DNA of 64,000 bases from Nitrospirota bacterium (lineage in GTDB: Bacteria > Nitrospirota > Thermodesulfovibrionia > Thermodesulfovibrionales > JdFR-88): NCBI GenBank assembly GCA_021813405.1, contig JAKAKS010000022.1, forward strand, positions 124,001-188,000, given 5' to 3'. The translations under genes and the position numbers were made by a program. Each line of letters begins with the position of its first letter. Position 1 is the first letter of the stretch. Below the pieces are notes generated by a model. The model saw only the letters and a program-made list of their open reading frames with translations. It did not search any database and was not told where the DNA came from. Shown in pieces: positions 14,793-19,031 of the stretch.

Positions 14793-15176
14793 ATGAAGCT
14801 AAAGAAAAAGGAACGGCCGTGCATACGAAGCGCCGCAGGGAATGACTATACCTTAATGGGTAAGCTCTGGATAGAAGGCCGCGAAGGAACCTTCCTTGGC
14901 CATGGGCGCATTGCACTTTTGGAACGTATCAAACAATACGGTTCGATATCGGAAGCTGCAAGGTCTATGGAAATGTCCTATCGTCATGCATGGGCTTTAT
15001 TGGAAAATATGAACCGGCAGGCAAGATTACCGCTTATAGAAACTGCCATCGGCGGTGAAAAAGGCGGCGGTACAAGGTTGACAGAAACTGGAGAAAAAGC
15101 GATCGCTTTTTTCAAAGAATTAGATAAGAAATTCGAGCGCTTTCTTTCCATGGAGGCAAAAAGATTTGATTTCTAG
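14793..15176 (+). CDS. ModE-like winged-helix regulator, HTH domain only
   Basis: 127 aa. The pattern GKLWIEGREGTFLGHGRIALLERIKQYGSISEAARSMEMSYRHAWALL is cut here for length; key parts are LLERIKQYGS, SEAARSMEMSYR and WALLENMN, the N-terminal DNA-binding fold of ModE. GGEKGGGTRLTETG follows, as in ModE/LysR-type proteins. The C-terminal molybdate-binding (MOP/TOBE) domains of full ModE are absent. It converges on a molybdate/tungstate ABC transporter operon, which supports a role in its control. How it would sense oxyanion without MOP domains is unclear. Confidence 0.8.
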   Translation: MKLKKKERPCIRSAAGNDYTLMGKLWIEGREGTFLGHGRIALLERIKQYGSISEAARSMEMSYRHAWALLENMNRQARLPLIETAIGGEKGGGTRLTETGEKAIAFFKELDKKFERFLSMEAKRFDF

Positions 15177-15244
15177 CTTTTTTTGAAGCGCACTATTGCT
15201 TAAAAAGCAGAACTATATTTCCCATCCCCGAACGAAAAATATGC

Positions 15245-16210
15245 TTAACCGGCCAGAACCGGTGGGTTTTGCAGAGTAAAGGACACCTCATGTCCCACCT
15301 GGTCCTCCATAGGGCGATCGGCTATCGTCTCGATAGTTTGCCCTTGCGCAACGCGAAGACTAACTAAAAAACGGCCCTCATGCGGACAACAGCTTTTCAC
15401 GATAGCCCGCCCGGCCGGGCCGGATGCTGGATTGGAACCCAGGTGGATGCGCTCTGGATGCAAGGCCACCAACCCCTCGCCCATGCCAAAGGCAGCGGCA
15501 GGCAAAAAGGCCGTGTAGCCGGCCAAACGGGCAACCTTGACTGAAGCGGGCGCGTCTACCAGTCCGGATGGACCGGCCTCCTGAAGGACCTCCCCATTAT
15601 CCAGCACGCCAATGGTATGGGCCAGGCGCTGGGCTTCCGTCAATTGGTGAGTAACAAGGAGCATGGTTAGCCGGTATTCTTTCTGCAACGCAAGGAGCAG
15701 ATCCTGCATCTCGCGACGGGCAGGCCGGTCCAGAGCTGAAAAGGGTTCATCCAACAGAAGAGCGCGTGGACGCGCTGCTAATGCTCTTGCCAAGGCCACG
15801 CGCTGTCTTTGGCCTCCTGAAAGAGTGTTGATTTTTGCTGATAGAAAATCATGCAGTTCCAGTGTCTTTACCAGACCCTTCGTGTAATCGTCCATCCTTT
15901 TATTTGGCAGAGCATAAGTGATGTTGCGCAAAACATCCAGGTGGGGGAAAAGAAGGGTATTTTGGGCCAGATAGCCCAATTGCCGCCTCCAGGCGGGAAG
16001 GTGCAACTGCATGGCATGGTCGGCAAGAACACTGCCGTTTAAGGAGATGAATCCTTTATGCAGCATTTCAAATCCGGCTGTTATGGACAGAATGGTGCTC
16101 TTGCCCGCCCCGGAAGGCCCAAAAAGGCAGTACATCCGGCCGGCTGGAATTTCTAGATTAACGCGGACGGCAAAAGACCGCCGCAACTGCTCAATTCGTA
16201 TTGACAGCAT
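15245..16210 (-). CDS. modC: Molybdate/tungstate ABC transporter ATP-binding protein
   Basis: 321 aa. Walker A GPSGAGKST, the ABC signature LSGGQRQRVALARALA and Walker B ALLLDEPFSALD are complete. The C-terminal third (VALHPERIHLGSNP onward) looks like a TOBE/MOP regulatory domain, typical of ModC and WtpC. It starts at ATG 16210, inside the 3' end of the permease frame (20-base overlap). The ATPase appears intact although the permease next to it is broken. Confidence 0.88.
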   Translation of the reverse strand: MLSIRIEQLRRSFAVRVNLEIPAGRMYCLFGPSGAGKSTILSITAGFEMLHKGFISLNGSVLADHAMQLHLPAWRRQLGYLAQNTLLFPHLDVLRNITYALPNKRMDDYTKGLVKTLELHDFLSAKINTLSGGQRQRVALARALAARPRALLLDEPFSALDRPARREMQDLLLALQKEYRLTMLLVTHQLTEAQRLAHTIGVLDNGEVLQEAGPSGLVDAPASVKVARLAGYTAFLPAAAFGMGEGLVALHPERIHLGSNPASGPAGRAIVKSCCPHEGRFLVSLRVAQGQTIETIADRPMEDQVGHEVSFTLQNPPVLAG

Positions 16211-16891
16211 GATGTTTCCGCCACAGAACTGTTAAAAGCGGTAACGGCAGGGAAACCAGAACTAAAATCAGGGCAAGCGGTAACGCCCAGCCCAGCCCCT
16301 GTTCCTGTAAGGCTACCCAGATGGCCACTGGCAGCCCCTGGGGATAGTAGGCGACTACTATGACGGCCCCGAAGGCGCCGATGGCCCTGGCCCAAGCCAT
16401 GGAAAAGGCCACGGCAAGGCCAGGCGATGCCAGCGGCAGTGTTACCCGGGAAAACGTGCGCCCAGGCGGAATGCCCAGGCTGTATGAAGTGTGGATTAGT
16501 GCCCGGTCTACCTGGTCGAAGGCTGCCACGGCCGCCAGGATGAAGTAGGGAGCGGCCTCGTAAATTTCGGCCAATACCACGGCAAAGAATGAATTGCTGC
16601 CTGACAGATGAAGCATCGAGAGCAGATGGCCCAAAAAACTATAAGGCCCGTAGAGATAGACCAGAAGAAGGCCGATTACAAGGGGCGGCATCAAGAGTGG
16701 AATCATGAGAAGATACTCGACATTACGGAAAAATCCGCCCGGGGCGCAGTTGTCGAAAGGGACAGGACCAGAGGGGCAACTCCCCAACCCCGCCAGACAT
16801 CGACCAGTTGCGGCCAGCTCGAATGCGCAACCAGCACTATCATGGGAAGCAGCAGAAATCCTGCTGACAGGACGGCCAGAAGGGTGACCAT
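16191..16891 (-). pseudogene. modB: Molybdate/tungstate permease, broken by frameshift and loss of one membrane segment
   Basis: Two frames together make a ModB/WtpB permease. The first (ATG near 16891, MVTLLAVLSAGFLLL) gives helix 1 and runs to VLSLSTTA, then off-frame to a stop at 16703. The second picks up at FFRNVEYLLMIPLLMPP and ends at 16191 with the EAA-type loop (VTLPLASPGLAVAFS) and final helices. Compared with the family, about 18-20 residues between STTA and FFRN are missing, including the second membrane segment, with a net out-of-frame change around 16735-16790. Binding protein and ATPase remain open. It may be a genuine dead gene or an assembly error. Confidence 0.75.
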
Positions 16892-16916
16892 CCTGAATCC
16901 GTGGACAGGTTGACGG

Positions 16917-17933
16917 CTAACGGAGTTCGGCTTTGATCTCTTGCGGAACGGCATTGCTGTCACCCGCTACCACCGGTTTGCTCAATAGTTGATAACCGTG
17001 CTGCTGATAGATCTTTTTTCCGGCAGGCGACAGAAGATATTTTACAAAGGAGACCCCGGCCTTCTGGTGCGGCGTGCCGCTGATGGTGGTCATATACAGG
17101 ACCAGCGCAGTTCCCTTGAATGTTTTGCTCCCGCCATTCTTCATGGCAACTGTGACGCTCTGTGTGTCGTAGGCGTGGGCCATGGCAGGATTGCCCAGGT
17201 TAATAGCGTCTGGCAGCTTGATATACTTAAGGTTGCGCTGAATGGCCTGGGGGAGGAAGGCGGAACACGCATCGAGCTGTCCGGCTTCCAGGCGGGACAC
17301 CAGGGCTGTTTCAGCGAAAATCTGTGCGGGATTATTGATTTGACCTATGATCTTTTCCACGGTCCCATGTGGCAGGCCATATTTTTTGGCCGCCAGCTTC
17401 AGCATTATAATGAAAGCCTGGCCTTGTGGATCAGTTTGTGGATTAGTGCGGCCAAGGTGAAAACCTTTCCGGGCCATCAGGGTGAACAAGGCGGCAAGAG
17501 GTTTTTGCCCGGCCGCGATGGCATTGAGCTGGGAAGCGAATGGACTGCGAGGAGAATAAGCCACTACCAGAGGCTGAGACGCAAAGCCCGCTGACCATGA
17601 TGTAAACTTGGGCTCAAGGGTGGCAATGGGAGCGAGCCCCACGCTTATAAAAACATTAGGTTGGATTTCTCCGGCTTTGATCAGATTGGCCACCCCGAAG
17701 GCACCGCCGGCATGGCTCTGATAGTTAAACCCGGTATCTCTTTTGAAAGCAGGCGCCAGATATCTGTCATTGACAAGCGTCAGAGAGCCGGCGTAAGCCA
17801 CGTAGGCAATCTGTCCGGCGCCGGTGCCAGCCATGGCGCTTCCAATGTCCAATACACTGTCCATCAAACCTGCGATAACGACTATCGCCACCATAAGAGA
17901 TGCCTTATTTCTCCCAAACCGGAATATTGACAT
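16917..17933 (-). CDS. Periplasmic molybdate/tungstate-binding protein (WtpA/ModA type)
   Basis: 338 aa. An N-terminal export signal (LMVAIVVIAGLMDSV...) is followed by a periplasmic-binding fold with family landmarks AYAGSLT near the mature N-terminus, PLVVAYSPRSPF and GRTNPQTDPQGQAF, which resembles the WtpA oxyanion-binding loop. Start ATG 17933 is chosen because GGAGG lies five bases upstream; the longer frame adds only MEAV. It is the first gene of the operon, with a ModE-box-like palindrome immediately upstream. Sulfate cannot be excluded as ligand, but the ModE-like gene nearby favours molybdate or tungstate. Confidence 0.82.
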   Translation of the reverse strand: MSIFRFGRNKASLMVAIVVIAGLMDSVLDIGSAMAGTGAGQIAYVAYAGSLTLVNDRYLAPAFKRDTGFNYQSHAGGAFGVANLIKAGEIQPNVFISVGLAPIATLEPKFTSWSAGFASQPLVVAYSPRSPFASQLNAIAAGQKPLAALFTLMARKGFHLGRTNPQTDPQGQAFIIMLKLAAKKYGLPHGTVEKIIGQINNPAQIFAETALVSRLEAGQLDACSAFLPQAIQRNLKYIKLPDAINLGNPAMAHAYDTQSVTVAMKNGGSKTFKGTALVLYMTTISGTPHQKAGVSFVKYLLSPAGKKIYQQHGYQLLSKPVVAGDSNAVPQEIKAELR

Positions 17934-17962
17934 TACCGCCTCCAATTTGCAATAAACAGTAG

Positions 17963-17986
17963 CGTTATGTTTTTATAAGCATATCG
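17963..17986. promoter_or_regulatory. ModE-box-like operator upstream of the binding-protein gene
   Basis: CGTTATGT (17963-17970), an 8-base AT-rich spacer and GCATATCG (17979-17986) form an imperfect palindrome resembling the E. coli ModE operator (CGNTATAT...ATATNNCG type). It lies 30-54 bases before the ATG at 17933 and overlaps a TTATAA that could be the -10. Repression by the ModE-like protein is the natural reading. Confidence 0.5.
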
Positions 17987-18163
17987 AACTGGAGGGCGGA
18001 AAGGCAAATAAAAAAATATTATTTAGATATAAGGCTCAAGCTTTCTTGACTGCGTAAGGAAGGACCGTGTTTCATAACCTTGACGAACAGACGGGCGGAG
18101 GCTAATTTTAAATAAACAGTTTCTTTCCTTCCAATTTATTTAGCAGAGGCGGAAGGGCCAATA

Positions 18164-18315
18164 TGAACAAAGGGCGGATGGAGGCAGTCAGCAACGGCGT
18201 GATAGCCGTTGTCATCACCGTAATGGCGCTTGATCTGAAAATACCCCACGGTGCAGACTTTACCGCGCTGAGACCGCTAAGCCCGGTGTTTTTTGTTTGC
18301 CTGCTCAGTTTTTAG
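18164..18315 (+). pseudogene. Remnant of a TMEM175/DUF1211 potassium-channel-like gene
   Basis: ATG at 18164 starts MNKGRM and then shifts frame. One base later the frame reads EAVSNGVIAVVITVMALDLKIP and HGADFTALRPLSPVFF, the first helix and loop of DUF1211/TMEM175 proteins, which normally begin MNKGRLEAFSDGV. A single G appears lost (GGATGAGGCA where GGATGGAGGCA would keep frame). The homology stops at TAG 18313-18315, after about 50 of the usual 190-200 residues. Two independent lesions point to a true remnant. Confidence 0.72.
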
Positions 18316-18337
18316 TCCTTGGCATCTAGCGGAGCAA

Positions 18338-18898
<561 letters not shown>

Positions 18899-18936
18899 AA
18901 AAAAACCTGCCCCCGTTATAAATATATGGAAGCAGG
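18899..18936 (-). terminator. Riboswitch-controlled terminator (expression platform)
   Basis: On the minus strand CCTGCTTCC pairs with GGGGGCAGG (9 bp including two G-U pairs, 13-base AT loop), followed by seven T directly before the crcB ATG. The 5' arm CCTGC is also the 3' arm of the aptamer P1 stem, so the two structures are mutually exclusive. Ligand-stabilised P1 should block the terminator and turn crcB on. The GCAGG arm also contains the only SD-like sequence, so translation may be controlled too. Confidence 0.85.
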
Positions 18937-18999
18937 AGTCATAAGCCCCGGCAATACCGGAGACGGCCGAGGCGGTTAAAGGCGAACCCCATCGCCTGC
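18932..18999 (-). promoter_or_regulatory. Fluoride riboswitch (crcB motif) aptamer
   Basis: Minus-strand RNA: P1 GCAGG (18999-18995) with CCTGC (18936-18932). Next is the conserved GGCGATGGGGTTCGCC hairpin, then TTTAACCGCC, a P3 hairpin (CTCCGG-TATTG-CCGGGG) and the conserved TTATGACTCC before the P1 3' arm. Order, conserved bases and location immediately before crcB match the fluoride riboswitch class. It is an ON switch sensing fluoride, with its own promoter upstream. Confidence 0.9.
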
Positions 19000-19002
19000 A
19001 GG

Positions 19003-19031
19003 AGAATATCAGAGCAGTGGCAGGAAGTCAA
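19003..19031 (-). promoter_or_regulatory. Promoter of the fluoride riboswitch-crcB transcript
   Basis: On the minus strand TTGACT (19031-19026), a 17-base spacer ending in TGA, and TATTCT (19008-19003). The expected start falls a few bases before the aptamer P1 stem, exactly where a riboswitch transcript should begin. Confidence 0.72.

Follow-up and report, generated by a model that had tools for sequence, protein, structure and literature searches.

Does a riboswitch module that looks complete still have a gene to control? This question is raised by a locus in the 64-kb stretch of DNA analyzed here (the window), in which crcB had been predicted to be directly preceded by a fluoride riboswitch complete with promoter and terminator. 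Every one of these regulatory elements was present; on the other hand, crcB was frameshifted and the following DUF190 gene was truncated, both of which had been overlooked when the module was described as complete. Therefore, the module appears to stand without an intact product to control. As judged from sequence comparison, the locus very probably represents a standard transcriptional ON switch for fluoride, with its own promoter, located at the head of a crcB-DUF190 operon undergoing decay in this genome. The live switch is argued for by the Rfam match, the rare and conserved terminator, the upstream TTGAC boxes, and the published mechanism, and the decay by the intact operon behind the same switch in a congener, as against three separate lesions here. 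The features of the locus are summarized in Table 1.

Table 1. Features of the fluoride riboswitch locus in the window.
Feature	Position	Strand	Basis or remark
Sigma-70-type promoter TTGACT-17-TATTCT, TGATATTCT	19003..19031	-	Pattern scan
Fluoride riboswitch aptamer GGCGATGGGGTTCGCC	18926..19005	-	RF01734 match; transcribed core from ~18996
Position 39 = U	18943	-	Other 79 aptamers: G (64) or A (15)
Pseudoknot 3' strand GACTCC	18935..18940	-	Sequence mapped to the numbering of PMC11077080 and PMC8004769
Terminator hairpin CCTGCTTCC / 13-nt loop / GGGGGCAGG	18906..18936	-	Conserved in congener
Terminator T7 tract	18899..18905	-	Directly before ATG 18898
crcB (fluoride exporter), broken; stop after 101 codons	18593..18898	-	PF02537, profile positions 2-74 of 103
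DUF190 remnant (PF02641), start codon lost	18336..18470	-	Approximately profile positions 3-38 of 97 left

Identification of the fluoride riboswitch

When the window was searched with cmscan against all Rfam families, a single riboswitch was detected: a match to RF01734 (the Rfam fluoride riboswitch) at 19005-18926 on the minus strand, with a score of 47.7 bits (E 4e-10; gathering score, 34 bits), spanning the full model (positions 1-64). This was the covariance check that had been proposed together with the original prediction, in which the elements were given without a strand; their positions held, and the strand is the minus strand. The element is a genuine fluoride riboswitch of a known family with the standard mechanism, and adds one further member to a family already numbering thousands. 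The closest known systems are the crcB leaders of Bacillus cereus and Thermotoga petrophila (the transcriptional RF01734 type), with which the window switch shared an aptamer above the curated cut-off, the pseudoknot and linchpin residues, an intrinsic terminator on the pseudoknot/linchpin strand, and a downstream crcB; it differed from them in U39, a shorter terminator overlap, and broken crcB and DUF190 genes.

The pseudoknot, as read from the sequence, consisted of six pairs between 18990-18985 (GGGGTT) and 18940-18935 (GACTCC), two of which were G-U wobbles. The linchpin residues A40 (18942) and U48 (18934) and the adjacent U41 (18941) were all present (numbering mapped from PMC11077080). 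The linchpin A40-U48 and the adjoining U41 are required for the fluoride response, and U41 is the site of a published dead mutant (PMC11077080); this residue, two bases past U39, was intact in the window aptamer. Among 80 distinct aptamers, U39 itself was seen in the window only, and the orthologue in the congener G001 had G. This tally was made with a text pattern fixing C37-U38, A40, and U41, and, therefore, sampled canonical aptamers only and is uninformative on those positions. A purine at position 39 is conserved in practice, and is no formal membership criterion of RF01734. The aptamer score was ~9 bits lower in the window than in the congener (47.7 and 56.4 bits, respectively); U39 is one recognizable part of this loss, and might weaken the window switch.

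Promoter and intrinsic terminator

The predicted TTGACT-17-TATTCT promoter was located as a -35 hexamer at 19031-19026 and a -10 hexamer at 19008-19003, with an extended TG. The match (9/12) is weak when taken alone, since the pattern scan yielded three sites of this quality versus 1.6 expected. Both hexamers and their spacing were kept in G001. When the 60 bases preceding each of 80 distinct aptamers of this class were scanned, 47 contained TTGAC, at a distance of 31-51 nt before the aptamer core, versus 4.7 expected from shuffles; these sequences are related and not fully independent. This conservation in the congener and among related aptamers makes the promoter credible. From the spacing to the end of the -10 hexamer (19003), +1 would be located at ~18996, the first G of the aptamer GGCG.

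The 9-bp terminator with a T7 tract right before the ATG of crcB was also found where it had been predicted: the arms CCTGCTTCC (18936-18928) and GGGGGCAGG (18914-18906) formed a stem in which two of the nine pairs were G-U, and the hairpin alone had a folding energy of -13.0 kcal/mol. A generic terminator scan (loops of up to 8 nt) returned no terminator because the loop is 13 nt, and a direct count with shuffles was used instead: 18870-18960 was dinucleotide-shuffled 20,000 times, and a comparable hairpin with a T-run appeared in only 29 of the shuffled sequences.

In fluoride riboswitches, the aptamer and terminator are mutually exclusive, and the two have in common the 3' pseudoknot strand, which is protected by the linchpin A40-U48 (PMC11077080, PMC13273304). 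The 5' arm of the window terminator covered C46 (18936), C47, and the linchpin U48. Thus, the proposal of mutual exclusion was borne out as far as the terminator shares bases with the aptamer, but through the pseudoknot/linchpin strand (C46, C47, and U48) and not through P1. The CCTGC (19002-18998) that had been assigned as the P1-closing strand was rejected, since the predicted +1 lies downstream of it and the congener has TTACA at this place. In 62 of 80 related aptamers, the terminator made use of the pseudoknot strand, and in 59 of the 80 it took the whole of it. A terminator starting at C46 was found only in the window and the congener among these 80, while one other relative started one base earlier. 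The window terminator thus overlaps only two pseudoknot pairs and the linchpin, which is shorter than usual. This is a point against the live switch, as the leverage of the terminator on the aptamer is putative.

Probable degeneration of the crcB-DUF190 operon

In the whole-genome search, a stop was found inside the crcB match, and the full-length CrcB domain that marks a functional crcB (Fluc) operon was absent downstream of the switch. Relative to the congener, in which the crcB frame has ~142 codons, the window crcB carried a one-base deletion, and ~60% of the length of DUF190 was lost. The crcB-DUF190 locus of G001 (L203/L024) showed ~96% DNA identity to the window and had the promoter, aptamer, terminator, and leader in common with it; it differed in an intact crcB followed by an intact DUF190 (PF02641, E 1.4e-37), G39, and the lack of the upstream CCTGC. 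These loci form a matched pair, in which the promoter, aptamer, and terminator are almost letter-identical and one operon is intact while the other is broken, and in which a riboswitch appears to have been caught outliving its genes. Two features of the window locus also lend themselves to testing: U39, as a naturally occurring point variant, and the short overlap of the terminator.

The genome is a draft, and an assembly error behind part of the damage is unlikely because the three lesions are located at different places. The region 17950-18345, a gap following the DUF190 remnant, was searched for a mobile element or duplicated sequence that might fill it, and a second copy was absent from the genome; a search for the leader in plasmids returned zero matches. 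A search of abstracts for pseudogenes associated with fluoride riboswitches yielded no relevant paper. Shortly after the DUF190 remnant begins an ABC transporter operon (14793-17945; SBP_bac_11 binding protein, permease, and ATPase) beside a ModE-like HTH_1 gene; this operon is probably for molybdate/tungstate uptake.

Alternative explanations

crcB might be functional after all, if its breakage were a sequencing or assembly error or were bypassed by frameshifting, and the complete module would then stand. Only one base is affected in the crcB lesion, and the remaining C-terminal coding sequence, which could be read in a different frame, was almost the same as that of the congener; however, the adjoining DUF190 independently lost its start codon and over half its length, the site contained no recognizable slippery heptamer, and five of the 11 codon differences before the lesion changed the residue (small numbers). 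Frameshifting is not known for CrcB either, and we regard a functional crcB as very improbable. The opposite case, in which the switch itself is already dead because U39 and relaxed selection cost it the fluoride response, would leave a constitutive terminator before a pseudogene. The uniqueness of U39 among the 80 aptamers, the G in the orthologue, the lower aptamer score, and the broken downstream genes are all consistent with this, whereas the pseudoknot strands, A40, U48, U41, promoter, and terminator were all intact, and position 39, being G or A elsewhere, is not strictly required. We therefore consider a dead switch to be rather unlikely, and prefer the live switch before a decaying operon.

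The start codon of crcB was uncertain among ATG 18898, an in-frame TTG, and an in-frame ATG ~50 nt further on. The original prediction placed the Shine-Dalgarno sequence inside the terminator arm; termination would then be combined with sequestration of the ribosome-binding site in the 3' arm, with ATG 18898 as the start. CAGG was indeed located 7 nt before this ATG, which was in frame with crcB in both the window genome and congener, and in two relatives (L012 and L017) crcB started right after the T-run with a Shine-Dalgarno sequence inside the arm. A start at ATG 18898 would add ~14-16 residues before the CrcB domain in the window and congener, and the domain began at residue 18 in the window frame versus residue 4 in the intact CrcB of contig C42. 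Of 65 relatives with a T-run, 32 carried an ATG no more than a few bases away from it; this ATG opened a long frame in eight, but only a short frame in 24, in which the gene started further on and had a separate Shine-Dalgarno sequence, frequently within a common ATGCCYGGAAAGGAG stretch. Furthermore, a working intrinsic terminator leaves no full transcript to sequester. Because the ATG after the T-run mostly opens a short frame, translational control through the terminator arm is a possibility, and such double control appears rather unlikely.

ATGCCYGGAAAGGAG-like stretches were also observed after the terminator and before unrelated genes (L011, L013, L015, L032, L036, L128, L129, and others), and their ATG often opened a frame, ~9-11 codons long, that ended where the real gene begins. 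This stretch may encode a leader peptide or may simply be a common ribosome-binding site.

Proposed mechanism

In the live switch that we prefer, transcription would start at approximately the first aptamer base, and the aptamer would fold while emerging. Without fluoride, the linchpin A40-U48 would be loose, and the growing terminator hairpin would pull C46, C47, and U48 from the aptamer, resulting in a stop at T7. In the presence of fluoride and Mg2+, the linchpin would lock and RNA polymerase would continue into crcB; given the frameshift in crcB and the truncation of DUF190, this read-through would yield no intact exporter. The job of the exporter is probably done by two other sets of genes in the genome (see below). 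We suggest, only tentatively, that the switch persists in a fluoride-regulated form as a leader whose own gene is no longer intact, the fluoride regulon having moved to five other switches. If true, the short-overlap terminator (two pseudoknot pairs and the linchpin) would represent a natural minimal expression platform.

Other fluoride riboswitches in the genome

Six RF01734 matches above the cut-off were detected in the 2.9-Mb, 56-contig genome (G000), on contigs C17, C37, C42, and C48 (L001-L006). This number was the highest among 231 genomes of the class (the next had five and four), and the congener G001 has one; the six-switch genome is, therefore, a richer case than the flagged locus. 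Two intact crcB genes were found elsewhere, on C42 and C48, both with a double-DUF190 gene behind them; their operons are headed by, or lie beside, other fluoride riboswitches.

Fluoride riboswitches are known with exporters, Na+/H+ antiporters, formate hydrogenlyase, and DNA-repair genes (PMC11139923, PMC8004769). On C48 (L144, 13103 down to 3582), a fluoride riboswitch headed a complex-I/group-4-hydrogenase-like operon with NuoH-, HyfE-, and antiporter-like subunits, a 49+30 kDa fusion, and a 20 kDa subunit, which ended with crcB and double-DUF190. The second switch on C48 headed MutS-domain genes, and further switches on C42 and C37 headed Dynamin_N GTPase genes. Among the papers searched, none dealt with fluoride riboswitches and dynamin together. 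Genes for dynamin-like GTPases were located directly behind fluoride riboswitches at L009 (2705-4483) and L008 (4106-2301), and the same arrangement was observed in the relatives L028, L031, L131, L133, L159, L169, L183, L187, and L196; Dynamin_N was assigned by Pfam for L009, and the other dynamin-like loci were judged on their similar N-termini.
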